From the NCBI GenBank assembly GCA_949710005.1, contig OX453287.1, positions 10,741,805-10,805,804 on the forward strand: 64,000 nt of DNA. Reading direction: 5' to 3'. This document shows positions 21,292 to 42,967 of this stretch, one piece after another (position 1 is the first letter of the stretch; each line of letters opens with the position of its first letter). The notes beneath the pieces were generated by a model. That model saw only the letters and a program-made list of their open reading frames with translations. It was not told the DNA's origin and ran no database searches. The position numbers were made by a program, and so were the translations under genes. The DNA comes from Ricordea florida (Eukaryota > Cnidaria > Anthozoa > Corallimorpharia > Ricordeidae).

Positions 21292-21309
21292 GAAGAATCA
21301 TTACACAAA

Positions 21310-25506: not shown

Positions 25507-26456
25507 GGTATAACTTGTAATTCTTCCCTTACAAAACCTCGTCTAGGTCCGTCAGTTAAATAATATAAAACAGGCTGATTTGGCGCAATCATACTTTTTG
25601 AAATATCATAAACTTTGAGACTCCAAATAGGATCCGTGGCTCTTCTTCGTTCTCCTCCTTCAAGTTCGCCCGGAAATAATAGATATCTAACTTTAACCGC
25701 TGGCGGTAATCTAACTTCATCAAGCCCAACAACCCGCTGATAATTTTTGGTGTTAATATTAACCTCTTTCAGTTTTATAGCCTCATCAGGCTCTTTACCG
25801 GTTATTCTCGTTTTTGTATTATTCAAAGTTTTTAGAATAGCTGGTAATCTTTTTACCCATACTCTTGATCGAGCATCACTTACCATTTCTTGCGCATATT
25901 GATGACTAAATAATCTTTCTCCTAATATTCTGTTTGCATTTTCCACAAATGCTTGGGCTCTATGATTACCGGCTTCACTTCTCTGTATTTTCACATTATG
26001 GTAATTCATGAGTTTACTAACTTCTCCCATAAATTCTTTCCCAGGATCAACCATTAATGTTTTTGGGTATTTTAATCTTCTAGAATATATTTTTGTAAAA
26101 GCTTCTGATATCTCTCGACTTTCTTTTGAGGTTAATGGCTCAGCATCTTTATATCTCGAGGCGATATCAACCACAACTAACGCGTTTTTATATGTTTTTC
26201 TTCCAACTCTATCATGCGGTAAAAATAATAAATCTGCTTGGTGTATATGATTTGGTTTATCCAAAGTCCAATGTGGCCTTGGAATATACTTTGGAGGAGG
26301 AAGATAGATTTGCCATATTGCTTGTTTCTGCAACCATTGTTTTACCTCATTTTCACTTACTTTTGATTTCTCAGCTAATTTTGGAATTGCAGAATATCCT
26401 TTCCAATATCCTTCAGCCGAATAATATATTTTTGAGAGAATATTTTCGTTGCTCAT
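25464..26456 (-). CDS. INT: Retroviral-type (RVE) DDE integrase of the Polinton
   Basis: An intact 330-residue ORF, convergent with the polymerase. The core has the DDE triad: Asp75 in HQADLLFLP, Asp137 in LMVDPGKEF and Glu172 in QAFVENANRILGERLFSHQY, with about 34 residues between the last two as in retroviral integrases. The C-terminal part (PVLYYLTDGPRRGFVREELQ) has the SH3/chromo-like tail pattern of Polinton integrases. It inserts the linear element into the genome with a short target duplication. A decayed relative of the same subfamily lies at 49404-49930. The start codon is divergent from, and only 30 bp from, the next small ORF, so the two share a promoter region. Confidence 0.95.
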   Translation of the reverse strand: MSNENILSKIYYSAEGYWKGYSAIPKLAEKSKVSENEVKQWLQKQAIWQIYLPPPKYIPRPHWTLDKPNHIHQADLLFLPHDRVGRKTYKNALVVVDIASRYKDAEPLTSKESREISEAFTKIYSRRLKYPKTLMVDPGKEFMGEVSKLMNYHNVKIQRSEAGNHRAQAFVENANRILGERLFSHQYAQEMVSDARSRVWVKRLPAILKTLNNTKTRITGKEPDEAIKLKEVNINTKNYQRVVGLDEVRLPPAVKVRYLLFPGELEGGERRRATDPIWSLKVYDISKSMIAPNQPVLYYLTDGPRRGFVREELQVIPYDTVLPPDSVLVR

Positions 26457-26463
26457 TTAAAAA
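26456..26463 (+). promoter_or_regulatory. Octamer TTTAAAAA, 31 nt before the 63-codon ORF
   Basis: It fits the element-wide octamer and its spacing. It overlaps the first base of the divergent integrase start codon, so the two genes have a very compact shared control region. Confidence 0.4.
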
Positions 26464-26473
26464 TAAACAAGTA

Positions 26474-26481
26474 TCTTATAA
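26474..26481 (-). promoter_or_regulatory. Octamer TTTATAAG, 25 nt before the integrase start
   Basis: Part of the 12-mer ATTTATAAGATA (minus strand, 26482-26471). Near-identical 12-mers precede the two other internal minus-strand genes (30644-30633 and 41765-41754), and one reversed copy lies at 26692-26703 next to the capsid gene. Confidence 0.45.
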
Positions 26482-26486
26482 ATCAA

Positions 26487-26678
26487 ATGGTTGAGGAGGA
26501 AGAAGAAATGAAATTTACCGAATACCAAATCAACATTATGAAAAAAATTATTAGGAAAAAAATTCTATATATGGAAGACGGCGATCAAATTTTTAATATT
26601 ATGATTTTAATTCCCGAGGCAAGAGAGGGTTTATTAAAACATATTACCGAGTTAGAAAATAGGACAACACAGGTTTAA
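26487..26678 (+). CDS. Small acidic Polinton ORF, unknown function (63 aa)
   Basis: This short ORF sits between the divergent integrase and the capsid gene. It is unrecognised. The protein begins with an acidic run (VEEEEE) followed by a predicted helical stretch rich in Ile and Lys and a C-terminal Glu/Leu-rich helix. Support for a real gene: it fills the only gap between two genes, ends 30 bp before the capsid start, and has an octamer 31 nt before its ATG as the other genes do. Against: it is short and I know no homologue. A small regulatory or scaffold protein is a guess. Confidence 0.5.
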   Translation: MVEEEEEMKFTEYQINIMKKIIRKKILYMEDGDQIFNIMILIPEAREGLLKHITELENRTTQV

Positions 26679-26681
26679 AGG
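26674..26681 (+). promoter_or_regulatory. Octamer TTTAAAGG, 34 nt before the capsid start
   Basis: A member of the element-wide motif set with standard spacing. The 12-mer TATCTTATAAAT also lies at 26692-26703, between this octamer and the ATG. Confidence 0.5.
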
Positions 26682-26707
26682 TTAACCAAAGTATCTTATA
26701 AATTACA

Positions 26708-27949
26708 ATGACGTCTGAAAAAATTAACCCAAACAGAATTCCTAAAGAACCATTTGGTTTGAAAGCAGAATCAACCCTGAATCGAATTACTCTAAATCCA
26801 TCCACAGCCAGCCCAGGAGAAACATTATACATAAATATTCCAAAACTCGCCGAGAATTTGGTGATTGTGCCTGGAAGCGTATCCCTTCTATTTGATTTAG
26901 ATGTTGGGGGTCATGCTAATAACACAGTTGTGAATAATGTGGGCCGTAATCTTGTAACCAGACTGAAAGTTCTTTTTGGAGGAGAAACATTGCAAGATAC
27001 TCAAGGATATGATTTATTTCAAACCTATCATGATTTATTCTTAACTGAAGAAGAGCGCGAAGATAGATTAAAACAAGGTATTTCTTCGTTAAATATTAGA
27101 AAACTTAGAACAAAAGCCGGAGATATGAAAACACAAGATGTAAAAGAAGTTGCCCTCGCCAATGTTCATGGTTCAAAGTACAGAATACCATTAAATCACC
27201 CCATTCTAAATGACCACGGAGTATTTTACCCCAAAGCTCTTGAAAACCATCTAATATTTGAGATCACACTTGCCCCGATCGCTAATATTCTTATTTATTC
27301 TGATACAACTAAAGCACCATCATATTCAATCAAAAACTTAGAGTTAGAATATTCCTCAATTTCTAGCGAATACTTAGCGCGCGAGGCTCAAGCAGCCTAT
27401 CAAGTCGGCAAAGGATTCTTTTATGAAAATGTTACCCTGCACAAAACTTTTACATTTTCCATTGGCGGTGACGGTGTTATTAATCAACATATTAATTTAC
27501 CGAGAAGATCAATGACAGGAATATTGTTTTTGTTTTTAATTCCTCAAGCTGCAGGAGCAAGGGATTCTGAAAATTTTTATAATCCGGGGATATCTTCCGT
27601 TGAAATTGATGTTGATGGTGTACCAAATAGAATATACTCTAGAGGAATGATTCCGTCCGATTTTTGGGAATCCGTGAAAAAAAGATTTCACCGCGGTGAT
27701 GGTTTACAAATTTCATTGAAAGAAAAAGAATTTTACGCGGATAAGTTTGCTCTTTGGGTTGATACTAGAACTCATCCAGATAATGGTATTCATGGAGGCG
27801 GACTTGCTCTAAATAATACTCATGACGGTGTAAAAGTAGAAATTAAAAGGAAACAAGGCGGATCTGGAACCGTAACTTGCCATATGTTCGTAGTAGCGGA
27901 TGCAATGATGGAGATTATGAATTCAGGTTTGAGAGCAATTAAGTACTGA
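26708..27949 (+). CDS. Probable major capsid protein (double jelly-roll candidate)
   Basis: An intact 413-residue ORF directly before the packaging ATPase. The sequence is beta-rich with many short hydrophobic strands and has no signal peptide or membrane segment, as expected of a capsid protein. Recognisable phrases are INIPKLAENLVIVPGS, VVNNVGRNLVTRLKVLFGGE and YDLFQTYHDLF in the first half, and SMTGILFLFL with FYNPGISSVEIDVDGVPN in the second. I associate this protein family with capsids of virus-like elements in cnidarian genomes. Length suits a compact double jelly-roll of the PRD1/adenovirus lineage. A decayed relative lies beside a Polinton polymerase remnant at 60776-61020, which supports its being a core Polinton gene. 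A structure prediction would settle the fold. Confidence 0.68.
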   Translation: MTSEKINPNRIPKEPFGLKAESTLNRITLNPSTASPGETLYINIPKLAENLVIVPGSVSLLFDLDVGGHANNTVVNNVGRNLVTRLKVLFGGETLQDTQGYDLFQTYHDLFLTEEEREDRLKQGISSLNIRKLRTKAGDMKTQDVKEVALANVHGSKYRIPLNHPILNDHGVFYPKALENHLIFEITLAPIANILIYSDTTKAPSYSIKNLELEYSSISSEYLAREAQAAYQVGKGFFYENVTLHKTFTFSIGGDGVINQHINLPRRSMTGILFLFLIPQAAGARDSENFYNPGISSVEIDVDGVPNRIYSRGMIPSDFWESVKKRFHRGDGLQISLKEKEFYADKFALWVDTRTHPDNGIHGGGLALNNTHDGVKVEIKRKQGGSGTVTCHMFVVADAMMEIMNSGLRAIKY

Positions 27950-27956
27950 CCGAGAA

Positions 27957-27964
27957 TCTAAAAA
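27957..27964 (+). promoter_or_regulatory. Octamer TCTAAAAA, 31 nt before the ATPase start
   Basis: A member of the element-wide T-Y-T-A-R-A-R-R set, in the short gap after the capsid gene. Confidence 0.55.
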
Positions 27965-27987
27965 CATAATGTTATGATACAAAAATC

Positions 27988-28614
27988 ATGGAAGATTTAC
28001 GAGATAAAATCCCATTCCACTGTATAATAACAGGACCCACAAATTGCGGAAAAACAAAGTATTTAATTGAACAGCTCCGCGGACCATTCCGAAAAGTTTT
28101 TGAATATATTGTGTTAATTTGCCCAACCTATTCTAAAAATAAAACTTATCATAATTTTGCTCGAGGAGATGAACATTTTTATGTATTATCGCCGGACGCA
28201 AGTAATTCGGATGAGATTAATGAGTTATTAAATGATTGCCAAACTTTATTCTCTGGTACGAATACATTAATAATTCTAGATGATTGCGCGGTTTCCTCCG
28301 ATCTGAAGAAAAGATCCAATAAATTTATAGATTTAGCATTCTCCGGTAGGCATCATGGTTTATCGGTTTGGGTTCTAACCCAGCAATTAACTTCGATAGC
28401 AAAACCATTCCGCGAAAATGTAGCCTGCGTTGTTACTTTTCATAATCCTTCCCAGAAAGGTATGAAAATGTTTTTCGAGGATTACGGAGGTGATTTAGAT
28501 TATGAATTGGGTAAAAAGTTTTTGCATCTCCTGAAAACCGAAAAATATTCTAGGTTGTGTTTGAGTTTGCGATATCCATTTAATTGCTATTTAGAGATTC
28601 CCAAAGTGATTTAA
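27988..28614 (+). CDS. DNA packaging ATPase (FtsK/HerA, A32-like)
   Basis: An intact 208-residue ORF. Walker A is GPTNCGKT at residues 16-23; Walker B is TLIILDDC with Asp98-Asp99. A later Gln-rich segment (WVLTQQLTSIAKPFREN) fits the sensor region of A32-like ATPases. Such enzymes pump viral DNA into a preformed capsid in the PRD1-adenovirus lineage, Polintons and virophages. It follows the capsid gene by 38 bp, a common virion-gene order. Decayed homologous pieces are found at 59598-60268. The next gene starts 6 bp after its stop and draws its upstream octamer from within this gene. Confidence 0.93.
   Translation: MEDLRDKIPFHCIITGPTNCGKTKYLIEQLRGPFRKVFEYIVLICPTYSKNKTYHNFARGDEHFYVLSPDASNSDEINELLNDCQTLFSGTNTLIILDDCAVSSDLKKRSNKFIDLAFSGRHHGLSVWVLTQQLTSIAKPFRENVACVVTFHNPSQKGMKMFFEDYGGDLDYELGKKFLHLLKTEKYSRLCLSLRYPFNCYLEIPKVI
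28590..28597 (+). promoter_or_regulatory. Octamer TTTAGAGA, 30 nt before the next start, inside the ATPase gene
   Basis: A G-containing variant of the motif placed in the coding end of the ATPase gene. Keeping the spacing despite coding constraint is notable. Confidence 0.45.
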
Positions 28615-28619
28615 CAAAT

Positions 28620-29168
28620 ATGACAAACGTAGAAGATTATATTAAAGAAAATAACAACCAACCTAATGAGGAAACGGTAAAAGATAATGAGGATCTTGAA
28701 ATAAAACAAGAATCGCTTGCCATTCTCGCGGCCTTGGGAACAACAAAGGAATATTTAGGGATAGAAATGAGTTTGGGCGATATAAAGAAATTATCTGCAA
28801 AAGATGTTGAAAAGTATTTTAATAGATATCAGGCAGTAATGGGTAAGAAAATTAACGGTGGATTAGTAGATTCATCCCTTCAATTAGTTTCCAAACTTAT
28901 TTCTTATTTAGTTCCAGTTGATGATATAGAATCTCTTTGCAAAGATCTGAAGAATGATGATTTGGTAAATCGCGAACTAACAAACATTGTAGGACTCTTG
29001 GCATTGAAAGCAGGAAGGCTGGCAGCACTTGCTAGCGGACTATTTCAAGTAGCTAAACACATAAAATTCAACAAAAACCAACATTTTTCAAGAGGCGAGC
29101 CAGTAAATGGTAGCACAACTGCCCAGGAAACTAAGCAATCTGCTGAAGGCGTTGATACAGTATATTAA
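28620..29168 (+). CDS. Polinton protein of unknown function (182 aa)
   Basis: I chose the ATG at 28620 because it lies after the ATPase stop and has an octamer 30 nt upstream; the frame is open further 5' but overlaps the ATPase. The N-terminal 30 residues are acidic and polar; the middle (about 45-150) is helical with conserved-looking hydrophobic phrases (LAILAALGTTKEYLG, LVSKLISYLVPVDDIE, LLALKAGRLAALASGLFQ). The C-terminus is polar. No membrane segment is convincing, though the Ala/Leu-rich stretch near 135-150 could be amphipathic. I do not recognise it beyond a general resemblance to ORFs in other cnidarian Polintons. A structural or maturation role is inferred only from its place among virion genes. 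Confidence 0.78.
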   Translation: MTNVEDYIKENNNQPNEETVKDNEDLEIKQESLAILAALGTTKEYLGIEMSLGDIKKLSAKDVEKYFNRYQAVMGKKINGGLVDSSLQLVSKLISYLVPVDDIESLCKDLKNDDLVNRELTNIVGLLALKAGRLAALASGLFQVAKHIKFNKNQHFSRGEPVNGSTTAQETKQSAEGVDTVY

Positions 29169-29173
29169 ACAGA

Positions 29174-29181
29174 TCTAAAAA
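29174..29181 (+). promoter_or_regulatory. Octamer TCTAAAAA, 32 nt before the 147-aa gene
   Basis: A member of the element-wide motif set, in the 37-bp intergenic gap. Confidence 0.55.
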
Positions 29182-29205
29182 CTTATTTATAGCATCTAAA
29201 TAACA

Positions 29206-29649
29206 ATGTCTGAACAAACTGAAGTAGAAGTAAAAAATACTGAGCAAATTACCGCCGACCCAGCACCCGGAAATAAAGATACTAAAAAGAGGGAGAAAGA
29301 TCCTAAAAAAGTCGCAGCTGGAAAGAAATTAGCAGAATATAATAAAAAAGCAAAAGAAGCATTAGCTAGGGAAATGAAACGAGAAGAAGAGCCAGCCCCG
29401 GCGGGCCGCGGAGAAAATGAAAATACATATAGTGAAGCGAAATCATGGCTTCCAGAGTTATCTTTTACTACTGTTTTATCTGTTGTTGGATTGGGGTTTA
29501 CAGCATTTGATCTTTTTATGAGATATCGAGAAAAAGCCGGGGAGGGCTTCGTCCGATATTCCAGTAGGATAGCTGATTTATCACAAGTACCACAAATACC
29601 CCAACCGGCAAAAATTCCATTGACCTCAAAATCTTTAGGAATGGAATAA
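29206..29649 (+). CDS. Single-pass membrane protein, unknown function (147 aa)
   Basis: The N-terminal 75 residues are highly charged and Lys/Glu-rich (KKREKDPKKVAAGKKLAEY), probably helical. One clear hydrophobic segment (FTTVLSVVGLGFTAFDLFM, about 87-105) is followed by a short basic stretch (RYREK) and a Pro-rich tail (QVPQIPQPAKIP). The topology suggests a membrane-anchored virion component with a long charged domain. It has no family I can name. It is part of a run of four small genes on the plus strand with 2-37 bp gaps, several hydrophobic, resembling minor virion or internal-membrane proteins of related viruses; that role is inference. Confidence 0.75.
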   Translation: MSEQTEVEVKNTEQITADPAPGNKDTKKREKDPKKVAAGKKLAEYNKKAKEALAREMKREEEPAPAGRGENENTYSEAKSWLPELSFTTVLSVVGLGFTAFDLFMRYREKAGEGFVRYSSRIADLSQVPQIPQPAKIPLTSKSLGME

Positions 29650-29654
29650 AGTCA

Positions 29655-29662
29655 TTTAAAAG
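29655..29662 (+). promoter_or_regulatory. Octamer TTTAAAAG, 32 nt before the 72-aa gene
   Basis: A member of the element-wide motif set. Confidence 0.5.
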
Positions 29663-29686
29663 TTACTCAATGATACAGTAAAAATT

Positions 29687-29905
29687 ATGTCAACTGAAAA
29701 CAAACTTGTGAAAACTGTAACTGATTCAGCGGTACTTATCGGATTGGGCGCTGGGGTTGGTTATGTGGCTAAGAAGCTAATGAAAGAATCATTTTTGAGT
29801 GATCCATCCTCAAGCATTACAAATTATGCAAAATGGGTTGCGGTATTATCCGGAAGCATGTATCTTAAAACATATTTAGAGGATCAAAAGATTTTACCAA
29901 AATAA
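29687..29905 (+). CDS. Small hydrophobic protein (72 aa)
   Basis: This small ORF has a Gly-rich hydrophobic segment (VLIGLGAGVGYVAKKL, about 17-32) and a second moderately hydrophobic stretch (WVAVLSGSMYLKTYL, about 46-60), so one or two membrane passes are likely. It ends one base before the next start codon. I do not recognise the family. Its size and hydrophobicity resemble small membrane virion proteins. Support for reality is its tight packing and its octamer at the standard distance. Confidence 0.7.
   Translation: MSTENKLVKTVTDSAVLIGLGAGVGYVAKKLMKESFLSDPSSSITNYAKWVAVLSGSMYLKTYLEDQKILPK
29875..29882 (+). promoter_or_regulatory. Octamer TTTAGAGG, 32 nt before the 130-aa gene, inside the 72-aa gene
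   Basis: A G-containing variant of the motif, kept at standard spacing although it lies within coding sequence. Confidence 0.5.
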
Positions 29906-29906
29906 A

Positions 29907-30299
29907 ATGGCAGCAATAGCGATGATGATTGGTGGGGCTATATTGAATGCAACGGCATTTACTGGTGGAAATTATCTTGCAAAATATTTATCTGGACGCG
30001 ACGTTGATACTGAAAAAATACGCCACGACAAAGCAATGGAAAAATATCAAAGAGATTACGAAGCATATCAGGAAAAAAGACAAAAAATGCTTGATTGGAA
30101 AATGAAGAAAAAAGATGAAAAATATCAGGCAACAAAAAATATTTCAACTACAAATCAGGCTTTTGAATTGTACGGGCAAATGACTGAACCAAAATTCTCT
30201 GATTATTACAAACCAAGCGATGAACAAAAAACAGGAGAAATGGCATATGTCGGAGCTGGAATGTTGGGTTTGGGGTACGCGGCAAGTAAAATATTATAA
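29907..30299 (+). CDS. Membrane/coiled-coil protein conserved-looking in cnidarian Polintons (130 aa)
   Basis: The N-terminus is a hydrophobic segment (AAIAMMIGGAILNATAFTGG) suited to membrane insertion, followed by a charged coiled-coil-like helix (about 38-80: EKYQRDYEAYQEKRQKMLDW). The C-terminus ends in a second hydrophobic Gly/Ala-rich segment (AYVGAGMLGLGYAASKIL). The pattern suggests a hairpin or two-pass protein with an exposed coil. I have seen similar ORFs in cnidarian sequence but know no function. It is the last gene of the left plus-strand run; the next gene is on the other strand. Confidence 0.75.
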   Translation: MAAIAMMIGGAILNATAFTGGNYLAKYLSGRDVDTEKIRHDKAMEKYQRDYEAYQEKRQKMLDWKMKKKDEKYQATKNISTTNQAFELYGQMTEPKFSDYYKPSDEQKTGEMAYVGAGMLGLGYAASKIL

Positions 30300-30349
30300 A
30301 TTATTATATAACTTGTAATACAGCAATTAAAATAAGTTATATAACATAA

Positions 30350-30607
30350 TTAAAGTATTCGTATACCATATAATTCCTCAGTTATCATAATTTTTGCCAC
30401 ATTTTTTTCTTTTTCTTCAAATTCATCAATATTCTTTACCAAATTAAATAAAAAATTTAGTTTTTCTTCTTTTTCTTTATTATCTTTTGTTCCAACAGCT
30501 AAATCATATAATAAGCCAAATTTTTTTCTTTTTTCCCCTTCTTCCTCATCAAAATCTTTAAGTATAGATCCCCATAAAAGTCTTTTTGCTATATTTTCGC
30601 TTGTCAT
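30350..30607 (-). CDS. Small acidic Polinton protein, minus strand (85 aa)
   Basis: An unrecognised ORF that is very rich in Glu and Lys (DFDEEEGEKRKKFG, FEEKEKNVAKIM), probably all helical and soluble. It sits between plus-strand genes on the opposite strand and is preceded by the 12-mer ATTTAAAAGATA (minus strand, 30644-30633), the same word that precedes the acidic gene at 41737. Shared promoter word and strand suggest these two genes, with the integrase, form an expression class distinct from the virion genes. That is inference. Confidence 0.6.
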   Translation of the reverse strand: MTSENIAKRLLWGSILKDFDEEEGEKRKKFGLLYDLAVGTKDNKEKEEKLNFLFNLVKNIDEFEEKEKNVAKIMITEELYGIRIL

Positions 30608-30635
30608 TTTATTTCTTTTTATTTATTCCCCTTAT

Positions 30636-30643
30636 CTTTTAAA
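30636..30643 (-). promoter_or_regulatory. Octamer TTTAAAAG (12-mer ATTTAAAAGATA), 36 nt before the 85-aa gene
   Basis: An identical 12-mer precedes the minus-strand gene starting at 41737; a one-base variant precedes the integrase. Confidence 0.5.
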
Positions 30644-30668
30644 TCAATTTTTCTTCAGTTCTAAGGGG

Positions 30669-30676
30669 TCTAAAGA
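30669..30676 (+). promoter_or_regulatory. Octamer TCTAAAGA, 32 nt before the coiled-coil membrane gene
   Basis: Same exact octamer as at 38721 and 40388; a member of the element-wide set. Confidence 0.6.
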
Positions 30677-31771
30677 TTTCATACTGATGAGTAAAAAATT
30701 ATGGCGGAAGAAGAAATACCAATGGAAGATTTTCCTAAGGGAACTGATGAAGATGATTATGATTGGGATGATACAACTTTTCAAACCCCAAATACATCTA
30801 CAAACCGCATAGAATATCCCGGTTATGACGAGGATGAAGGAAGAAGACGAGAAGAATGGGATATTCCATCTGAAAGAATTAATTTGGGCGATGAGGATTA
30901 TGATAGAAGGGTAGAAGCGGGGCAATACCTAAGACGTTATTTTCCAGACTTCAATCCAAGGGATGCGTCATTTAATGTTGAATTTGAAGAAGATGGAAGT
31001 ATAACCGGGAGATTAAGTGATAGGGAAAATGCCAAGAAGCATATCATACTTGATAAAGATAAAAATCTTAGGGTTGAAGATTTACCAAAAGGAATGAGAA
31101 AAGAACTGGGCGCTGATTATGAAACAATGTTTGAAAAATATAATAATGCCGCTTCAGAATTAAAACAGTCCGATGAAAAAATTAAGGAATTAGATAATGC
31201 ATTGCAAGGATTTAAAGCAACAGCAGAAGTATATCCCCTAGAGATTGAACGATATGCGGAAAGAGAAAAAGAACTTAGGGAATTCATTGAGAGACAACAG
31301 GTACAAAAAGCAGAGACTAAAAGCCTTTTCGATCAAACCGTTAAACAGAATATAGAATTAAAAATACAAGCGGAAAAACTTTTGGAAGAGGTAAAATTAT
31401 ACAAAGAAGAAATAGACAAATATAAGAAGGGTAAATCAAATGAATCAAAATTAAAACAAAGCAATGAACGATTAAAATCTGAGTTAGATAAATTAAGAGA
31501 ACAGATTAGAAATAAAGCAATTTCAAACGCAGAACAATTATCAGATATTGATGGTAAAAAAGATGAAATACTTAAAAATTTACCTCTTAGGGAGAGATTA
31601 AAGTATATATTCAAAAAGTATGGTTTTACAGTTTTTGCCGTTCTAAGTGCGGTAGGAGTAATCATTGGGGTTATAGTTTCTAATCTTTCAAAGGGTTTAT
31701 CTGCTTTGGGGAAAGGAGTGGGAAATGGTTTGAAAACTCTTGGTAAAAAACTGGGTGAAATATTACCAGGA

Positions 31772-31774
31772 ATG
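31772..31774. repeat. Left target duplication of the CACTA element (ATG)
   Basis: The 3-bp ATG before the left terminus CACTAG is repeated at 37848-37850 after the right terminus. Three bases is the usual duplication for EnSpm/CACTA. Confidence 0.8.
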
Positions 31775-31990
31775 CACTAGACCAAAAGCCACATTTTAAT
31801 CACATTTAAGTTGCATTAAACAACCCTAGAACTTGGGTCTACATTTAAGTCTAGTTTAATTGTTTAAAACATCACTTAAATCAATGCTATTGTCATAGTG
31901 GGGTTTAAGTGCCCCTGAAACATACATTATACACCTGAAGCCATTTAAGTTCCTTAAATGGAGATTAAACATTCTCTAAATTAATGGTTG
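31775..31990. repeat. Left subterminal repeat block of the CACTA element
   Basis: About ten copies of TTTAAG/CTTAAA-type words in both orientations within 216 bp. In CACTA elements such arrays bind the element's own DNA-binding protein. Confidence 0.75.
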
Positions 31991-32835
31991 TGTTTTGGTT
32001 CACATAAATGACTATTTATTGATATATAACAGGAATAGTAAGAATTATAATTGTCCAGTGTGTAACATCACTGTGCACTTCATTGCTCAAGTATCTTCAA
32101 ATTGTCTCTTTTCTCCATAACAGAATCAGAACACCAAAACATGAAAGCAACGTAAAAATGTCTTGACATTTTGAACTCAGTTCAATAAAAAAGTAATATA
32201 ATTTTAAAAAAATATCATCAAGAAGAAAAATGACCATATTTCACTAATCACACTAAGACAAGTGTATTAAGAAACTTTAATTTTATCCGTATATGTAGTT
32301 TCCATGTCCACAGTCATGTACCCTTATTAGCTTATGCATCAAAATTTTGATACAGTGTATATATGTTGTCAAGTAACCACAATGTACAAATGTGTCAATC
32401 TCCAAATCGAAAGACAATGTAAGATGGAACAGAACGATATTTTTACACTTACACAACATTTGCATCAACATTAACACCTGATCTAACAAGTAGCATATGA
32501 CAATTTGCAAAAGTGGTGTGAACTGTCAATCAAAAGTAGTCATTTGTATATGCACTTTCCTATGTACCAATTTATTTCAGCTGGTTAAACCTAAGTTTGT
32601 ATGCAATCCGTAGTGCCACAGTACTGTTAAGAAAATACTGGTGCCTTCAGAACTCAAATACTGTCCAGTCATATCATAATAAAAATTATTTTTTCAGAGA
32701 AAAAAAGAGAAATAAGGAGAACGTTTGCTTCAATGATACAGTCTCTTCTTAGCTAAGAACCCTATCAATGACTTAATCTAAATCTGTAAAATGCCAGCAC
32801 GACGAGGTATAGGGCAAACTGCCATAAGTTTGGCA
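31991..32835. other. Non-coding part of the CACTA element
   Basis: AT-rich sequence with no ORF or splice-linked exon that I can support. It may be the 3' region of the minus-strand zinc-finger gene. Confidence 0.5.
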
Positions 32836-33057: not shown

Positions 33058-33339
33058 TTTGTTGATTATCAAAGACGGAAACCGCAATCGGTAATGATTG
33101 ATTTGCGTCACGAGCCATGAATGGCCCTATTGTTATCCCAAGCAATTTGCATTTGGTTTTTCTGCTTCATTGCAATTGGTTGGTTTTCGATAGTAAGCCA
33201 ATCAGAAAGTGAGAGTGTCGGTCGCGGGATGTATGTTTCATGTAGTTAGCGTCATTTAGAAGTTCGCATTCCAGCTTCGTTCCTTGCCGTGTGCTCGCTC
33301 GTGTTTTACAGTTAGTTACACTTCACTTTTCCGGTAACG

Positions 33340-36300: not shown

Positions 36301-37137
36301 TATGCAATATAGCAAACAGGTTATTCTTACCCTTGGACTCTCAATGTTTGACAAGTAAATAATTATCCTTGGTATATTTACACATTTGTTGGTTTGGAGA
36401 ATTTTGTAGGTTAATTCAGTATTAAAGTGTTGATAATTGTAATGATGTTTATGATATGATGCTTAATGATGATATGATATTAATGTCAGCTGCATTGCCA
36501 TAAATTTTCTATCTTATCAAAAAGCTCCTTATAACTTTTAGAGTCAGGGGGTTGGGTAAAAATGAATCACAAACTCATACAATTGAAGGAGTATTAATTG
36601 AACCTTGGATTAAGCACCTAGAGTGAATCAGGCTTTTTTTTCTTTGCTTTGAGCAATTATTGTTTTTTTCAATGTAGCAATCATCATTTCCTCTTGTACT
36701 TCTTCTTATGACTTAACTTGCAGCTTCCTTTATTTATTCTCAATTGATTTAATATCATTCTCTGTTAGAAACTGGAAAGACGGAATCGTGCATTTGAGTT
36801 GGTTCAATCAAGCATGACAGCAACACAACGGCAGTGTGCTAGTGAGGTCCTGTTTATTGACTACATGAGCAGTGAGGAGTCAGATTATGATGAGATAGAG
36901 GACCCCATTACAGGAGAAAAGCAGAGAAAACTTGCAAGATACCATAAAAAAAGGTTGCCATGGGAAAGGTCAAGCCTAAAAAACTTGAAACAAAAGTTGG
37001 ATCGCGCATACCATGACAGCCTGTCATTGCATGCTAGAGCCATGTCCAAGGCCAGAGAGGTGCATGGTGTGTCAACAAGACCAGCACCTGAAGGTCCAGC
37101 TTGGGCTGTTAGACAGATTGATACTGTTTATTCTTAG
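33340..37137 (+). CDS. Five-exon gene inside the CACTA element, unknown function (295 aa)
   Basis: Exons: 33340-33573, 34504-34574, 35309-35412, 35587-35696, 36769-37137. Every junction has GT-AG borders (donors GTGAGT, GTATGT, GTTTGT, GTGAGT) and phases match throughout (0, 2, 1, 0), ending at TAG 37135-37137. The product starts with a coiled coil (about 5-60: RMSGKMDAICDSQKRLQDAN) and a basic stretch, continues with helical basic segments (KKLVEKKMLKGF, CKKNRRLL), and ends with a domain containing FIDYMSSEESDYDEIEDP and RLPWERSSLKNLKQKLD. I do not recognise a named family. It might be the transposon's own DNA-binding protein or a captured host gene; the preserved splice structure argues it is or was recently functional. 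Confidence 0.82.
33604..33723. repeat. Fold-back insertion in intron 1 (30-bp arms)
   Basis: Arms 33604-33633 and 33694-33723 are inverted repeats matching at 28 of 30 positions (core AGAATACCCGTCCACT). The loop is 60 bp. It looks like a small MITE or a hairpin within the intron. Confidence 0.85.
34075..34315. repeat. MITE-like inverted repeat in intron 1
   Basis: Inner arms 34124-34156 and 34234-34265 match in inverted orientation except one extra T (core TTCCGCACAGGTCCCTAC). Weaker outer arms extend to about 34075 and 34315 (ACCCCATACTTCATTA-like). The size and symmetry suit a MITE; I did not define its target duplication. Confidence 0.7.
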
Positions 37138-37847
37138 GCCAATGGATCTCATGCTACTTTAAATGAGACCTTTTTTTCACACAGCAGACAATTGGCTCTA
37201 CTGTAAAAAATGCTACCAAAAAAGCAGTGTACTTTTAGATATTTTTAGTCACAACATTGTGAAACATTTTTCATATGTAAAGATTTATGACATGTAGGTC
37301 TTACTTAATTGAATAAAAAAAATGTTTTTCTTAATAAAAGGTATTTTTAATATAATCAAACAAGTGTACTGCAAGTGTTGGGTGGGTTTGCTGCAAAGCA
37401 ACAACAACTAAGACAACAGCAAATGAAATATACACTGTACATGTAACGACCAAGTAAAAAACACCACTGTTTATGAAGGAATACATTTGGTGGGTGACTT
37501 AAAACATGCTTATGAAATGAATATGGCCAAAAAGATATAGTTGAACCCTCTAAAATTAAATATAATTATGATCATTTAATTACCCTAAAACATGACTTTT
37601 ACACACATTTAGAATGTGTTTAAGTTTCTAATTAAACATAACGTAAACGTCAGAAGATATTTTGGTTGTATTTAATGCTCACTTAAACATACATTAAGCT
37701 TTAGCCTTAAGGGTGTTTAAGGCGGGTTTAAGGTGAAATTAAACATATTTTTAAGTTCTTAAACCTCTAATTAAATGTAGTAAACATAAGTTTAAGCCAA
37801 GATTAATTTCAGTTTAAGTCTGCTTAAATGTTCTTTTTCTCCTTGTG
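37138..37847. other. 3' non-coding region and right subterminal repeats of the CACTA element
   Basis: After the stop of the five-exon gene come AT-rich sequence, a possible polyadenylation signal (AATAAA at about 37312 and 37335), then from about 37590 to 37847 more than a dozen TTTAAG/CTTAAA-type words mirroring the left end. Confidence 0.65.
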
Positions 37848-37850
37848 ATG
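37848..37850. repeat. Right target duplication of the CACTA element (ATG)
   Basis: It matches 31772-31774. The Polinton gene resumes in phase directly after it. Confidence 0.8.
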
Positions 37851-37986
37851 GTTGGGGCAATAGTCAGCTTTCTTTTCAAAACCGCGGGCCAGGTTATTGG
37901 ATTTTTAGGTGAAAATGCTTGGTTATTGATAATGGCGGTAGTTCTATATTTTGTGGAAAGTATAAAAAAGAAGAGAAAGTAACAAA

Positions 37987-37994
37987 TTTAAAGA
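37987..37994 (+). promoter_or_regulatory. Octamer TTTAAAGA, 34 nt before the 206-aa gene
   Basis: A member of the element-wide set, 5 bp after the stop of the split gene. Confidence 0.55.
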
Positions 37995-38020
37995 CATCAT
38001 GCCGTTCAGTAAAATACAAT

Positions 38021-38641
38021 ATGGGTGAATACAATGGAATTTATCCTCAAATACCTAATAATAATTTCCAAACACAAAGCGGAGATAATTTGATTAATTT
38101 CAGACTACAAAAATCAAGCGAGGTATTGCAAAATCTCGAGAAGGAAATTAAACATTACGAAGAAGTGAGGAAAAAATATAATAGGGCAAGAGGAATATGT
38201 ACAAAAATTAGTGTTTCTGGCGGATTTATTTCAGTTCTTCTATCAGCAAGCGGATTAGGAACTTCTCTCACAGGTTTTGGTGCTGTTGTTGGCGTGCCTT
38301 TGGGAGTGGTTGGGGGTGTTTTTGGAGGTTTGTCGATTGGATTTGGTTTTGCCTCTAAAAGTCTTTCTGGTAAAGTTAGTAAACACGAACAAACCGTTGC
38401 AATTGCAAAATCAAAATTAAACACCATTAGCGATTTAGTCTCAAAAGCACTGAAAGATAATGCTATATCCGATCAAGAATTTTCCATAATTTTAGCAGAA
38501 TTGGAAAAGTTTCAAAAACTGAAACAAGAAATACGGCAAAAATTCAGAAAAGATACAGAAAAAAACTTCGACATGAGTATTATAAGGAAGAAAGTTCGAG
38601 AAGATCTATTAAAAGAACTTACCGGAGGGAAAGGACATTAA
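38021..38641 (+). CDS. Gly-rich hydrophobic protein with coils (206 aa), Polinton
   Basis: I chose the ATG at 38021 because the longer open frame upstream overlaps the tail of the preceding gene in another frame and the octamer lies 34 nt before this start. The N-terminal 60 residues form a helical region (VLQNLEKEIKHYEEVRKKY). The centre (about 64-112) is a long Gly/Val-rich hydrophobic stretch (VVGVPLGVVGGVFGGLSIGFGF) that could span a membrane twice or act as a membrane-penetrating segment. The C-terminal half is a charged coil (ISDQEFSIILAELEKFQKL). Similar ORFs recur in cnidarian genomes as far as I recall. An internal-membrane or membrane-disrupting virion role is only an inference. Confidence 0.8.
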   Translation: MGEYNGIYPQIPNNNFQTQSGDNLINFRLQKSSEVLQNLEKEIKHYEEVRKKYNRARGICTKISVSGGFISVLLSASGLGTSLTGFGAVVGVPLGVVGGVFGGLSIGFGFASKSLSGKVSKHEQTVAIAKSKLNTISDLVSKALKDNAISDQEFSIILAELEKFQKLKQEIRQKFRKDTEKNFDMSIIRKKVREDLLKELTGGKGH

Positions 38642-38720
38642 AACTAGTATATGAGAAAACTGAAGTTGGGTGTAATTGTTTTGCGGGGGTTAATTGATTT
38701 TACATCTTATTCTTAAAAGA

Positions 38721-38728
38721 TCTAAAGA
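38721..38728 (+). promoter_or_regulatory. Octamer TCTAAAGA, 36 nt before the 537-aa gene
   Basis: Its position supports the ATG at 38757 as the start. Confidence 0.55.
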
Positions 38729-38756
38729 TCAGAAAAATTGGAAAACAAAGAATAAG

Positions 38757-40370
38757 ATGTTATTGGACGATTTCAAAACTAGGTATCCAAAAGCTAACTC
38801 AGAAAAATTTACATTTGTGGATGATTCATTCGGGGGATATATTGAATGGAAAGTTAATGGAACAACAATTATGTCAAAGGATGATCCTTCTGGAAAAACT
38901 TGGACAGTGGATCTTTCAAATAATATGAAAACATTATTATGGGAAGATTTGGGAGTCGAAAATAAAGTAAAGGTGAGTTCTTTTCCCACAAGTTTGAAAT
39001 TCACAAAACAAATATATCCAATACCAGGGATAAAATTTGAAGTATTTGCTCTTAATGTGACAAAATTATTAACCAGCCTAAATGTATATGTTTCAGAAAA
39101 AGATAGTTTTACTGCAGAAATGATAAATGTTTTTAAAAATCAAACTGTGGGGTTTACTAGTGGAAAAGAAGCTAGAGCTTGGTTGAGTAAACCAAATATT
39201 AGTCAATGGCCACAACAGTTAAATATGGCAGTTTGGTGCGCAACATCTGGATGCGGAGTAAGTTTGAGCGATATTTTTAGTTACCCGAAAGTTATTAAAA
39301 GTTTTTTCTTATTTCACATATACTTTACAATAAGAAGAATATTAGTGGAATTAAAAGTAGTATTTCCCGATGAAGAAACTTTTTCTATTAAAAATAATCA
39401 TTACGACAAAAATGCTTATAATAGATTATGCGCAGAATTTGGGTTAAGTAATAATCAAGATTTTAAGGGGTGGAAAAAACCTTTAGCTGATTTTAGATTC
39501 AAGGGAGGAACAAACAATGGGGTTGGAGATATATTTGTTGATTACGGGGAAGGATATGCAGACCCGGGAAGCGTTCCTGGGAGTGCGGCTGCACAAAAAA
39601 CGGGTGGCGGATTCCAAAATGTTAGAATTATAAGGGGTTATGATAAAGAAGCTAATATTTGGCCAAGCAGAGAAAATAAATTTTACGACGATGGCGGAAG
39701 AAAAAATAAGGGTGATTTAATCTCAATGATGAGAAATGACCATTTTGTTGATTTTCAATATGCTTGGTTTATAGCAGAATCTGGGCATGGATTAACAAAG
39801 GCTGGGTTGGGGAGAATAAATAGATCAGTTGAAGCTTTTGTATATTGTATATTAGGGGCACAAGTTAATACCAGAAATTCTATTGTGGGGAATGGCGGAG
39901 GAGCAAACGAAACGCAAAATGAATTCAAATATTTATTCGAAAGTTCTGTTAAAGTAAATAATATTTCTAAATCCGTTCAAAATTACCAAAAATCTGTACA
40001 GGAAACTAAATTAAGGCTTGATTTGGCTGTTGCTCCTGGTGTTTGGCTGATGCCGAGTAATTTAATTATAAATACAGAGAGTGTGATTGGGTACAATAAT
40101 GATCTGAAAATAGCAACAGAAGATATGACTTTTGGGGTAAATAATTCAGTAAATGTTGAAACAAAATCTGTTGGAATACCAAATAGTTTGGGAACATCAA
40201 AGGTTATATTAAATACCAATCCTCAACCAATCAAACTCAAATCAAATGAAAAGGAGGAACCTGGAGAAGATGAAGAACAAGTTAGTAATATAGAAACATC
40301 TCCTCATCAAAATAATCTTATTATTTTTGCGATTGGCGGAGCATTAATATCATGGTTTTTGTTTCGTTAA
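38757..40370 (+). CDS. Large tail-anchored Polinton protein, unknown function (537 aa)
   Basis: The frame is open a little further upstream but without an ATG, so 38757 is the first possible start. The protein is soluble-looking for about 515 residues and ends in a single hydrophobic anchor (LIIFAIGGALISWFLF) followed by one Arg. Distinct phrases are NMAVWCATSGCGVSL, LTKAGLGRINRSVEAFVYCI, LGAQVNTRNSIVGNGG and LDLAVAPGVWLMP. A low-complexity acidic linker precedes the anchor. It resembles ORFs in other cnidarian Polintons but I know no function. Position before the penton candidate and the membrane anchor suggest a virion protein, possibly an attachment or entry factor; this is inference. Long beta-rich regions do not exclude a capsid role. 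Confidence 0.8.
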   Translation: MLLDDFKTRYPKANSEKFTFVDDSFGGYIEWKVNGTTIMSKDDPSGKTWTVDLSNNMKTLLWEDLGVENKVKVSSFPTSLKFTKQIYPIPGIKFEVFALNVTKLLTSLNVYVSEKDSFTAEMINVFKNQTVGFTSGKEARAWLSKPNISQWPQQLNMAVWCATSGCGVSLSDIFSYPKVIKSFFLFHIYFTIRRILVELKVVFPDEETFSIKNNHYDKNAYNRLCAEFGLSNNQDFKGWKKPLADFRFKGGTNNGVGDIFVDYGEGYADPGSVPGSAAAQKTGGGFQNVRIIRGYDKEANIWPSRENKFYDDGGRKNKGDLISMMRNDHFVDFQYAWFIAESGHGLTKAGLGRINRSVEAFVYCILGAQVNTRNSIVGNGGGANETQNEFKYLFESSVKVNNISKSVQNYQKSVQETKLRLDLAVAPGVWLMPSNLIINTESVIGYNNDLKIATEDMTFGVNNSVNVETKSVGIPNSLGTSKVILNTNPQPIKLKSNEKEEPGEDEEQVSNIETSPHQNNLIIFAIGGALISWFLFR

Positions 40371-40387
40371 TGTTTTGATTATATAAA

Positions 40388-40395
40388 TCTAAAGA
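40388..40395 (+). promoter_or_regulatory. Octamer TCTAAAGA, 33 nt before the penton candidate
   Basis: It is preceded by TATATAAA, giving the most TATA-like context of the set. Confidence 0.6.
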
Positions 40396-40420
40396 TGAAC
40401 ATAATGTAATCAAAACAAAA

Positions 40421-41056
40421 ATGTTAAGTATTACAATTTACGATTCAGAAACTAGAATTTATTTGGATCCGCCGCTGAAAAATCTTCGGGAGATACAGCT
40501 CCTGGATTGTAATTTAAACACCAAAAGATTGATTAATTTAAAGGATCAACAGATATTATTCAATGATAATAATCAGCCTCTCATAATAATACAACCTGGC
40601 AAATATTCGTTGCGTGATATCCAATCGATCTTTCTTAATGATACTAATAGGGAAAAGATAACAATCATTGAGACAGACACTGTTGACTATCTTTATTCCA
40701 ATAAGAACTTCAAAATAAAAATTACGAGAGGATTAGCGATTGGTTTAGGCGTGCCCGAAGTTATAAATCCTGGTAAATTATATCCAATAAATATAAATAT
40801 TAAAGAGCCATTGAGACTTATGTGTAGTATAGTGGATAATAAGTCTTCATATTTGAACAAAACCAAAAATTCTGAACTTGTGAAACTCATGCCATCACAC
40901 CTACTCGCGAACATACCCTCAAAGGATTACCCGACAATTCCGGTTCAAAAATACGAGAACCCCATAAACCACTTTGATTTAACTATCTTTGGCAATGATT
41001 GGAAAAAACTTGATCTTAGGGGCTCACCCATAACTTTTAGTTTAAGATTTAGATAA
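40421..41056 (+). CDS. Probable minor capsid (penton) protein, single jelly-roll candidate
   Basis: An intact 211-residue ORF composed mostly of short hydrophobic strands with turns, without membrane segments or coils. It opens with an extended strand region (LSITIYDSETRIYLDPPLKNLREIQLLDC) and has the phrase QPGKYSLRDIQSIFLND, then a Gly/Pro-bounded strand pair (ITRGLAIGLGVPE), ending in strands (GSPITFSLRFR). Size and composition agree with penton-base-like single jelly-roll proteins of Polintons and virophages, and it is adjacent to a likely virion gene. The fold is inferred from pattern; a structure prediction would be decisive. Confidence 0.6.
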   Translation: MLSITIYDSETRIYLDPPLKNLREIQLLDCNLNTKRLINLKDQQILFNDNNQPLIIIQPGKYSLRDIQSIFLNDTNREKITIIETDTVDYLYSNKNFKIKITRGLAIGLGVPEVINPGKLYPININIKEPLRLMCSIVDNKSSYLNKTKNSELVKLMPSHLLANIPSKDYPTIPVQKYENPINHFDLTIFGNDWKKLDLRGSPITFSLRFR

Positions 41057-41101
41057 ATTTTTGTTATGTAACCATTTGTTGGGTTATATAACATAATTAT
41101 T

Positions 41102-41737
41102 TTAAAACAAATCTACGCCCCATCTCTTTTTCAAATCTCTCAACTCTTGAAAATCAATACACCAATCTAAAACCCTAATTGGTTTCCATGCTTCGGCTAC
41201 TAAATCATTATGCAAATCATTATAAAATTTCTTTTTGTGTAATGCCTTGTGCAAATCTTTATATAATGTGATTTTAATTGAATTAATAATAAAATCATTC
41301 GTGTTATTTGAATATTCATCTTCATCTTCTTCGTCTGATTCTACATCTTCATCATCTTCTTCATATCCATTTTCGGGATGATAAACTCGCATAAGATATT
41401 TTTGTTTTTGATAATTATTATAATAAATTTCGTTCGCATTTTCCATTAATATCTCAGAAATTTCGTCAGCAGGTAATATAAAACCCTTATCAAAATCTAT
41501 TTCGCCATCTTCGCCGCAATAATATTCGAAAATTTCCCCGTCATTCTTTCCAGAGTATATAATTTCAATATCAGACCAACTATCTTTATCTAAAAACCCA
41601 TAATTTTTTGATATTACTTTTAACAAATCCTTATTCATTGAATCAATGAAATCGCTGATTTCCAGCTCTTTTTCATTAGAATAAGAAATAGTAATAATTC
41701 TATTTTCAATATATTCTTGACTTGTCAAACCTTCCAT
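41102..41737 (-). CDS. Acidic protein with C-terminal W-P-R-W motif, minus strand (211 aa)
   Basis: An unrecognised ORF on the minus strand, 45 bp from the convergent penton gene. It has a dense acidic run (EEDDEDVESDEEDEDE, about 125-140) and a C-terminal helical domain ending in EAWKPIRVLDWCIDFQ. That last phrase resembles a short C-terminal motif (W-x-P-x-R-x2-x-W-C) I associate with many nucleocytoplasmic large DNA virus proteins of unknown function. The resemblance is from memory and untested. It may be an early or regulatory gene given its strand and its 12-mer ATTTAAAAGATA upstream, shared with the 85-aa gene. Confidence 0.68.
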   Translation of the reverse strand: MEGLTSQEYIENRIITISYSNEKELEISDFIDSMNKDLLKVISKNYGFLDKDSWSDIEIIYSGKNDGEIFEYYCGEDGEIDFDKGFILPADEISEILMENANEIYYNNYQKQKYLMRVYHPENGYEEDDEDVESDEEDEDEYSNNTNDFIINSIKITLYKDLHKALHKKKFYNDLHNDLVAEAWKPIRVLDWCIDFQELRDLKKRWGVDLF

Positions 41738-41756
41738 CTTTTATTTTATATTTTAT

Positions 41757-41764
41757 CTTTTAAA
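41757..41764 (-). promoter_or_regulatory. Octamer TTTAAAAG (12-mer ATTTAAAAGATA), 27 nt before the 211-aa acidic gene
   Basis: An identical 12-mer lies before the gene starting at 30607. Confidence 0.5.
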
Positions 41765-41844
41765 TTAAAATTCATTTTTAAAAATATCTATTTCGTTAAG
41801 TTCTTCTGTTATGAAACCAAAATAGGGGTTTCATAACATAATGT

Positions 41845-42279
41845 TCAACATTCTTTGCAAAAATATTTTTGTTTATTATGAACACATATTTGTGATCCGC
41901 CGCATTCTTTACAAAAACTTTTTTGATGATTGTGAAAACATATTTGTGACCCATCACATAATACGCAGTAAGATTTTCTTTTCCTGTGAATGCATATTTG
42001 TGATCCGCCGCATTCTTTACATTGATACTTTATTTTCCCATGAGTACATATTTGTGATCCCCCACATTCTTTACAAAAATATTTTTTAATTCCATGTACG
42101 CAGGGGTAATTATACATTAAAATAGCTTTTGTAATTAACTCATCAATATCCTCATCAGTAAATTTTTCCAACTCATTAATTAAATTATCTTTAAACATTC
42201 TAGACCTACCATTAATTTTCAACTCTTTTGCAATAAATTTTAGTTGCGGTACATTTAATCTCCGTAATTCTTGTTCCAT
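41845..42279 (-). CDS. Terminal gene: SAP-like N-terminus plus tandem CxxCGGSQICxH zinc repeats (144 aa)
   Basis: The first 14 codons come from the TIR and equal those of the polymerase (MEQELRRLNVPQLK). The following 30 residues keep a SAP-like pattern (KELKINGRSRMFKDNLINEL) but differ from the polymerase. From about residue 60 there are five tandem units of a Cys/His module, typically KxxCKECGGSQICxHxxxK, spaced about 17-18 residues, likely zinc-binding. I have seen this CxxCGGSQICxH repeat in giant-virus and protist proteins; its function there is unknown to me. A SAP plus zinc array suggests DNA binding, perhaps at the element ends. The gene reads inward from the right TIR, mirroring the polymerase. 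Confidence 0.85.
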   Translation of the reverse strand: MEQELRRLNVPQLKFIAKELKINGRSRMFKDNLINELEKFTDEDIDELITKAILMYNYPCVHGIKKYFCKECGGSQICTHGKIKYQCKECGGSQICIHRKRKSYCVLCDGSQICFHNHQKSFCKECGGSQICVHNKQKYFCKEC

Positions 42280-42960
42280 TTTGTGTAATGATTCTTCTTT
42301 TTAAATAGGTATTTTTTTCTTTTGAAAATCATTTTTTTCGAATGTGCCAGATCCTCATCATCAAATTTCTGGGGAGGGTTTCACATAGGCTTAGTATCAG
42401 TTTCATCAAATGTGCCAGATCCCAGCCATCGCCAATTTCAAAATAGTTTTTGTGCCAGCTTTGTATCATTAACAGAAACTTAACAATTTCGCGGAGGGGT
42501 ACCCGCCCGCTTGTCCGAGACTTTGCAGAGACTTTGCCTCTGGGGGCAAATTCGCCCTCCGCTCGCTCCGCCTGTCGGCCCCTCTTGACTGTAGGGGCTT
42601 GGCGGAGACTTTGCACAGGCTTGGCATGATATGTAAGAAGGCTTTGGCATATTTTCATTACAATTTCATGCACAGATCATCAAATTGTGCTAGCAACGCG
42701 CTTAGTAATGAAATCGTAATGAAATCGTAATGAAAATATGCCAGAACCCTCGCGCAGCTCGCTCCGCCTGTCGGCCCCTCTTGACTATAGGGGCTTGGCG
42801 GAGACTTTGCACAGGCTTGGCATGATATGTAAGAAGGCTTTGGCATATTTTCATTACAATTTCATACACAGATCATCAAATTGTGCTAGCAACGCGCTTA
42901 GTAATGAAATCGTAATGAAATCGTAATGAAAATGTGCCAGAACCCCCCTTTCATATCATC
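42237..42960 (-). repeat. Polinton right terminal inverted repeat (724 bp)
   Basis: The reverse complement matches 20640-21352. It is 11 bp longer, owing to one more copy of the 11-mer ATCGTAATGAA in its inner tandem unit. A single base change (TGTAGGGGC against TATAGGGGC) was noticed at about 42591. Confidence 0.95.
42298..42305 (-). promoter_or_regulatory. Octamer TTTAAAAA, 26 nt before the terminal zinc-repeat gene
   Basis: The mirror copy, within the TIR, of the octamer before the polymerase. Confidence 0.4.
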
Positions 42961-42967
42961 AGCTTTT
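42961..42967. repeat. Right target-site duplication of the Polinton (AGCTTTT)
   Basis: It directly abuts the right TIR and matches 20633-20639. Confidence 0.8.

Follow-up and report, generated by a model that had tools for sequence, protein, structure and literature searches.

How the packed genes of an animal Polinton are switched on, and where their RNAs begin and end, is the question raised by a 64,000-nt stretch of the Ricordea florida genome (assembly GCA_949710005.1, contig OX453287.1, positions 10,741,805 to 10,805,804 of the forward strand; hereafter the window). It touches on how the capsid genes of animal Polintons are expressed and on whether virions are still produced. The window contains a Polinton-type element (about 20639..42961), in which a sequence-only reading had pointed to an octamer, TYTARARR, upstream of almost every gene and had proposed it as the cue of a virus-type promoter. 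The results on this octamer (the box) and on the hairpins described below concern this one element and were obtained from its DNA sequence.

An octamer upstream of the genes

A list of 16 genes was drawn from the open reading frames (ORFs) of the element, namely the 11 genes of the sequence-only reading and five more, and TYTARARR was found 26–36 nt before the ATG in 15 of the 16. The 11 distances from octamer to ATG given earlier (31, 34, 31, 30, 32, 32, 32, 32, 34, 36, and 33 nt) were all exact, and TCTAAAGA occurred three times exactly, as had been claimed, at the promoters at 30669, 38721, and 40388. Overlap of some copies with other coding sequence was also found; the number of such copies was four (26456, 26674, 28590, and 29875) and not two.

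On the plus strand, TTTAAAAA lies 26 nt upstream of the ATG of the protein-primed DNA polymerase gene (pPolB), within the left terminal repeat (21284..21291), and again 31 nt upstream of a 63-aa ORF (26456..26463), where it overlaps the integrase start codon of the opposite strand. The major capsid protein (MCP) gene has TTTAAAGG at 34 nt (26674..26681), overlapping the stop of the 63-aa ORF. The packaging ATPase gene has TCTAAAAA at 31 nt (27957..27964), and the same octamer lies 32 nt upstream of the 29206 ORF (29174..29181). The 28620 ORF is preceded by TTTAGAGA at 30 nt (28590..28597), within the ATPase ORF; the 29687 ORF by TTTAAAAG at 32 nt (29655..29662); and the 29907 ORF by TTTAGAGG at 32 nt (29875..29882), within the 29687-29905 ORF. 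The copies of TCTAAAGA stand 32 nt before the 30701 ORF (30669..30676), 36 nt before the 38757 ORF (38721..38728), and 33 nt before the 40421 ORF (40388..40395), the latter two in hairpin loops, and TTTAAAGA stands 34 nt before the 38021 ORF (37987..37994). On the minus strand, TTTAAAAG was found 36 nt upstream of the 30607 ORF (30636..30643) and 27 nt upstream of the 41737 ORF (41757..41764), the latter with a second octamer at 45 nt, and TTTAAAAA was found 26 nt upstream of the 42279 ORF (42298..42305), within the right terminal repeat and identical to the left copy. The integrase gene, also on the minus strand, has at 26 nt the variant TTTATAAG (26475..26482), which misfits TYTARARR. The core was TTTA in 10 of the 15 strict copies, the MCP copy included, and TCTA in five. 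A split into early and late genes by TCTA and TTTA was rejected because MCP and pPolB both have TTTA.

The positional enrichment over shuffled sequence that the sequence-only reading had set as a check was borne out. In dinucleotide shuffles of the 60-nt upstream stretches, the mean count was 0.54 and the maximum was 4, and none of 5000 shuffles reached 15. The octamer was found at 1 of 85 in-frame internal ATGs of these ORFs and at 3 of 312 internal ATGs of any frame, and an antisense octamer was present in the same upstream zone of none of the 16 genes. Among ORFs of the flanks and of a nested insertion, 0 of 64 (23 + 6 + 35) had the octamer at promoter distance; the insertion contributed 6 of these (at least 60 aa), none with the box. 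A total of 34 copies was counted on both strands of the scanned element parts, 15 of them at promoter distance. As the shuffle, internal-ATG, and flank and insertion controls all fell far below 15/16, base composition is the poor explanation that it had been said to be. The octamer is far beyond chance, and chance and base composition are excluded.

Because the octamer had been derived from the 11 listed sites, and a count over these is circular, the five genes not listed earlier are the cleaner test. Four of them had the octamer, two through one common terminal-repeat promoter, and the integrase gene did not. Since the two terminal-repeat genes have one promoter sequence, the number of independent promoters with the octamer is 14 of 15. 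When ORFs were taken by a mechanical rule, as ATG ORFs without mutual overlap in the two parts of the element, the octamer was present in 12/15 at a length of at least 100 aa, in 15/20 at a length of at least 60 aa, and in 15/21 at limits of 40 or 30 aa. The misses at 60 aa were the integrase and four ORFs within the terminal repeats; at 30 aa they also included a 44-aa ORF (37848-37982) just past the insertion, which has no box at 26–36 nt.

De novo motif search by expectation maximization without a position prior used 15 upstream sequences, with the terminal-repeat promoter, of which there are two identical copies, entered once. The best motif was (R)TYTARAR, with a log-likelihood ratio of 29.9 compared with a shuffle mean of 22.6 and a shuffle maximum of 28.5 (0/60; 300 seeds for the real set and 150 for the shuffles). 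The standard deviation of the site offset was 3.05 nt, compared with a shuffle mean of 25.6 and a minimum of 16.6. At position 2 of the box, the matrix gave T 0.66, C 0.32, and A 0.01, and T or C was present in 15/15 best sites. A matrix made from the octamers of the 8 left-hand genes placed the best site at -26 to -36 in 7/7 held-out genes, among which the integrase was the weakest (5.9 bits, compared with 9.5–10.9 bits).

In 5 of 15 genes, the stretch from box to ATG contains further ATGs, six in total; each is out of frame and lies at -14 to -22. The reading frames of three of the six extend beyond the start codon, and a seventh ATG overlaps the last base of the 40421 box. The last 12 nt before the ATG had no ATG and were 59% A. 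Since upstream ATGs would interfere if the RNA began at or before the box, the start site is probably in the last ~13 nt. The leaders were A-rich and not pyrimidine-rich, with AG somewhere in 12/15; the three box-to-ATG stretches with no AG were those of the ATPase, 40421, and integrase genes.

Hairpins near gene ends

Hairpins had not been mentioned in the sequence-only reading. The search took the intergenic pieces one by one, each extended by 15 nt at either end, and called stems of 12 bp or more with no more than one G-U pair and a loop of up to 35. Among 14 such pieces (828 nt) it gave five hairpins, compared with 0 in 14,136 nt of ORFs. Flanks and insertion, about 47.6 kb together, gave 2 in the same search. 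In dinucleotide-shuffled pieces, the mean was 0.067 and the maximum was 2, and 0 of 1000 shuffles reached five.

Two of the hairpins lie between convergent ORFs: that at 30304..30344 has a 13-bp stem (one G-U) and a loop of 15, and is 5 and 6 nt from the two stops; that at 41062..41093 has a 12-bp stem (one G-U) and a loop of 8, and is 6 and 9 nt from the stops. Two others carry the next box in the loop. The hairpin at 38702..38760 (13-bp stem, loop of 33) lies 61 nt past the stop of the 38021 ORF, and its right arm covers the ATG of the 38757 ORF; the hairpin at 40371..40417 (14-bp stem with one G-U, loop of 19) begins at the first base past the stop of the 38757 ORF. The fifth (41807..41838; 12-bp stem, loop of 8) lies 7 nt past the stop of the 42279 ORF. 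The distance from hairpin start to stop codon was thus 1–9 nt in four and 61 nt in one. RNA folding gave z-scores of -2.55 to -4.42 on the plus strand for each of the five hairpins and of -2.17 to -5.49 on the minus strand for the three tested there, compared with 0.90 to -1.39 for five folds of gene-end stretches with no called hairpin (two at one place).

Host-type poly(A) signals were not enriched at the gene ends: AWTAAA was present within 120 nt of 5 of 16 stops, compared with 35% of random positions, and AATAAA of 3 of 16 stops, compared with 17% of random positions. Taken together, the intergenic hairpins at or near gene ends strengthen the virus-type reading of the layout. A further sequence, AACATAAT, was found six times in the element parts searched, at 27963, 30343, 40398, 41090, and 41835 on the plus strand and at 24534 on the minus strand. 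Five of the copies are intergenic; four of these lie behind same-strand stops, and three at the right arms of hairpins.

The element, its setting, and its relatives

Repeat search, ORFs, and Pfam analysis showed that the element has terminal inverted repeats whose arms are 97–99% complementary, and that pPolB, an rve integrase, an MCP, and a packaging ATPase, the genes by which a Polinton/Maverick is recognized, all lie within them. The pPolB ORF (21310..25506, plus strand) encodes 1398 aa and was assigned by homology. Endonuclease_7 was its sole Pfam match, and its identity also leans on polymerase motifs that we take to be those of the family. The few relatives of pPolB named among the matches listed, which numbered at least 120, were from Stylophora pistillata, Nematostella vectensis, the scallop Ylistrum, and the sea spider Nymphon, which by itself makes a cnidarian host likely. 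The integrase ORF (25464..26456, minus strand) matched PF00665, and the ATPase ORF (27988..28614, plus strand), of the Pox_A32 type, matched PF04665. The MCP ORF (26708..27949, plus strand) was assigned from a Capsid_N match below the cut-off (19 bits, cut-off 24) together with structure comparison. Its AlphaFold model had a mean pLDDT of 64 and a pTM of 0.63. Among solved structures, this model matched giant-virus capsids best (PBCV-1, grouper iridovirus), while Sputnik ranked 27th and mavirus 28th; among predicted viral structures, proteins of giant viruses, ascoviruses, adintoviruses, virophages, and MELD viruses were in the top fifteen.

In the 16 ORFs, Pfam (E ≤ 0.01) matched no family of RNA polymerase, TATA-binding protein (TBP), TFIIB, capping enzyme, or helicase, divergent members of which could escape Pfam. 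Several weak matches below the cut-off were to unrelated families. Rfam at the gathering threshold gave 0 families in 20600-43000, and 0 tRNAs were found in the window.

A probable nested insertion (about 31781-37830, limits set by eye) lies between the 30701 ORF and the gene block on the right, and has no pPolB, integrase, MCP, or ATPase gene. The terminal repeats (21284-21380 and 42209-42305) take in the promoter and the first codons of pPolB and of a 144-aa ORF (41845-42279, minus strand), so that these two genes begin with an identical box and N-terminus. In the 144-aa ORF there are 54-nt repeats that are cysteine-rich and zinc-binding in appearance, and its N-terminus, encoded by the terminal repeat, has a Rho_N match. 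Direct repeats (18555-18895 and 47661-48000), 29.1 kb apart, were found on both sides of the Polinton, which may therefore lie within another repeat element.

Scans of viral contigs with the MCP, an MCP alignment, pPolB (alignments, a piece, and the whole), and the ATPase revealed only two distant contigs, here L001 (IMGVR_UViG_3300028392_002905) and L002 (IMGVR_UViG_3300007522_001028), with pPolB identities of 40% and 38%. Scans of genome contigs gave six short contigs (L003-L008), and tblastn of a part of pPolB against the phage collection gave no match. In L002, 2 of 12 ORFs (9554 and 4526), one of them pPolB, are preceded by TTTAAAAG or TTTAAAAA, at distances of 28 and 27 nt from the ATG. 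L001 has TATATATA-type stretches a short and varying distance upstream of several ATGs, a different promoter habit. De novo motif search gave TATATATA in L001 (14 ORFs) and nothing consistent in L002 (11 ORFs) and L005 (5 ORFs). As for hairpins of at least 12 bp, L001 had one, intergenic and 38 nt behind an ORF end; L002 had three, two of them intergenic and away from any stop and the third within an ORF; and L005 had one, within an ORF.

No Polinton promoter motif was found among the papers listed, judged by titles and the beginnings of abstracts, which is not proof of absence, nor was one found in the parts available of the literature on cnidarian Polintons (Stylophora, Nematostella). In the available parts of PMC4642659, PMC4028283, PMC10120064, PMC11071308, PMC11071296, PMC12220804, and PMC9952930, the word promoter does not occur; in that of PMC8097293, it occurs only in relation to a growth hormone gene and in a reference. 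Cnidarian MCPs are described as the sole metazoan ones outside the main Maverick-Polinton cluster (excerpted text of PMC10120064), which fits an element with its own habits.

Explanations of the box and the hairpins

One core promoter per gene, with RNAs ending at several of the hairpins in a grammar like that of virophages and linear plasmids, is the reading that we consider fairly probable from the sequence. One core promoter per gene is the simplest account of the box, its spacing, and the packed genes. In nearly all genes of the Polinton, the octamer would serve as the core promoter element: an initiation factor would bind the RTYTARAR box, RNA synthesis would begin 20–30 nt past it, within about 13 nt of the ATG, and each gene would be transcribed into a separate, nearly leaderless mRNA. 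At several gene ends, a hairpin of 12–14 bp at or near the stop would end or process the RNA. We infer three parts of this scheme, namely that the box drives transcription, that there is such a start-site zone, and that the hairpins act as 3′-end signals; their placement suggests RNA ends or barriers.

The layout can be likened to that of virophages and of yeast cytoplasmic virus-like elements (VLEs) rather than to typical animal genes; the box layout works like these virophage and linear-plasmid systems, and membership in any of them is not implied. In yeast linear plasmids, a conserved sequence usually lies 20–40 nt before each ORF, and stem loops near the stops influence RNA 3′ ends (available part of PMC6211774). 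The Polinton box, at 26–36 nt in 15/16 genes, falls inside the range of this upstream conserved sequence (UCS), and the Polinton shares with the yeast VLEs (pGKL) stem loops near stops and almost no intergenic DNA. However, the UCS of the yeast VLEs is ATNTGA, whereas the Polinton consensus is RTYTARAR, and the yeast VLEs encode an RNA polymerase, a capping enzyme, and a helicase, none of which was matched by Pfam among the 16 ORFs of the Polinton.

Among virophages, the CroV late promoter lies upstream of all Mavirus genes, and Mimivirus-type hairpin poly(A) signals are present at 16 Sputnik gene ends (available part of PMC6723459). The windows that yielded the Mavirus motif were 30 nt of upstream sequence (PMC5636890). 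Endogenous mavirus-like elements (EMALEs) of type 4 have a TCTA motif, and EMALEs of other types carry other motifs (excerpted text of PMC8547959). Mavirus and EMALE type 4, themselves related to Polintons, likewise have a single short motif with A/T flanks before their genes (parts of PMC8547959 and PMC6723459), and the hairpins at some gene ends, alongside a common promoter motif, recall Sputnik and Mimivirus (same part of PMC6723459). However, the Polinton box differs from the CroV and Mavirus motif in that TTTA prevails over TCTA (10/15), RARR follows, and the box starts 26–36 nt upstream; in addition, the likely host is an animal. The promoter-type signal with positional enrichment proposed by the sequence-only reading is therefore strongly supported, while its tie to the TCTA promoter of CroV and Mavirus is weak, because only five of the 15 strict copies have TCTA and the MCP copy is TTTA. 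The hairpins, in contrast to those of Sputnik and Mimivirus, are putative 3′ signals present in 5/14 intergenic pieces.

Several observations weigh against this scheme. The hairpin thresholds were chosen after a first scan, and looser limits (longer loops or shorter stems) also gave stems of 10–12 bp inside ORFs and of 17–25 bp in the terminal repeats. No such hairpin was found in 9 of the 14 intergenic pieces, for example behind MCP and ATPase; six tandem gene ends (63-aa ORF, MCP, ATPase, 28620, 29206, and 29687) lacked one, as did the overlapping ends of pPolB and integrase, so that the hairpins are not a rule for every gene. A search for a second motif between box and ATG gave values below the shuffle mean at widths 6 and 8 and inside the shuffle range at width 10. 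The absence of ATG from the last 12 nt is weak and not significant alone, because there are so few G there, and TATAAA itself is present in the leaders of the 63-aa ORF and of MCP, as well as immediately before the box of the 40421 ORF. In L001-L008, the octamer was present at 26–36 nt in 2 of 48 ORFs, both in L002, and the hairpins of L001, L002, and L005 were not placed at stops as in the Polinton; L001-L008 are too distant to gauge conservation in animal Polintons.

The strongest competitor, which we consider a real possibility with somewhat more than a third of the weight, is an ordinary core promoter of host RNA polymerase II (Pol II). The box would be a TATA variant (TTTAAA or TCTAAA) bound by host TBP, with the start near the ATG, and the hairpins would be incidental or would block convergent read-through. 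The TATA box consensus is TATAWAAR, with A at position 2, and the Polinton box is like it apart from that position. The integrase variant TTTATAAG differs little from a TATA box. As with the metazoan TATA box, the octamer is A/T-rich and its spacing allows a start near the ATG; the 26–36 nt fit TATA-to-start spacing if the mRNAs are nearly leaderless. Entamoeba has a TTTAAA-type TATA element and very short leaders, and Pfam gave no RNA polymerase family for the element's ORFs. However, A was present at position 2 in 0/15 best de novo sites despite the A/T-rich DNA, and T or C at this position in all 15 therefore points to a factor with a preference other than TATA. In addition, it was hairpins and not poly(A) signals that were enriched at the gene ends. 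As to what reads the box, our slight preference is for a polymerase or initiation factor of virus type that would come from outside the element.

Such a polymerase may be that of another, as yet unrecognized virus, which would make the Polinton an animal counterpart of a virophage; we regard this as rather unlikely. The Polinton carries both cis-signatures from which the use of giant-virus transcription machinery by virophages has been deduced, a promoter box upstream of the genes and hairpins behind some of them. To our knowledge, no helper giant virus is known for animal Polintons. Some Polinton-like viruses are reported to replicate without a giant-virus helper (available part of PMC10945749). 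In Sputnik, known promoter motifs were upstream of 13 of 21 genes and lacking in 8 (available part of PMC11998528), so that a promoter signature is imperfect evidence of helper use.

The remaining explanations have little weight. An RNA-level element in the 5′ leader, acting on translation or stability, would fit the fixed distance to the ATG; it is improbable, as a transcribed box puts out-of-frame ATGs upstream in 5 of 15 genes, with 3 of 6 frames running past the start. A branch point or other splice signal is still less probable. The box would direct acceptors near the ATG that take a spliced or trans-spliced leader, TYTARAR loosely resembles a branch point, the box lies about 31 nt before the start, and most leaders have an AG; this reading was rejected because three leaders have none, and the leaders are A-rich where a pyrimidine-rich stretch would be looked for. 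Chance or base composition has a negligible probability: A/T-rich DNA yields similar octamers and 19 of the 34 copies lie elsewhere in the element, but the controls (0/5000 shuffles, 1/85 internal ATGs, 0/64 flank and insertion ORFs) refute it.

With one core promoter per gene and hairpins at several gene ends, the grammar of box and hairpin would be readable from sequence and would give precise predictions of start and end sites. It would offer a route to finding active Polinton copies, and would test whether Polintons depend on a helper virus or on the Pol II of the host, a question relevant to the proposal that giant viruses and linear plasmids descend from ancestors like Polintons. The layout of box and hairpin may reveal how elements of this kind activate their genes.

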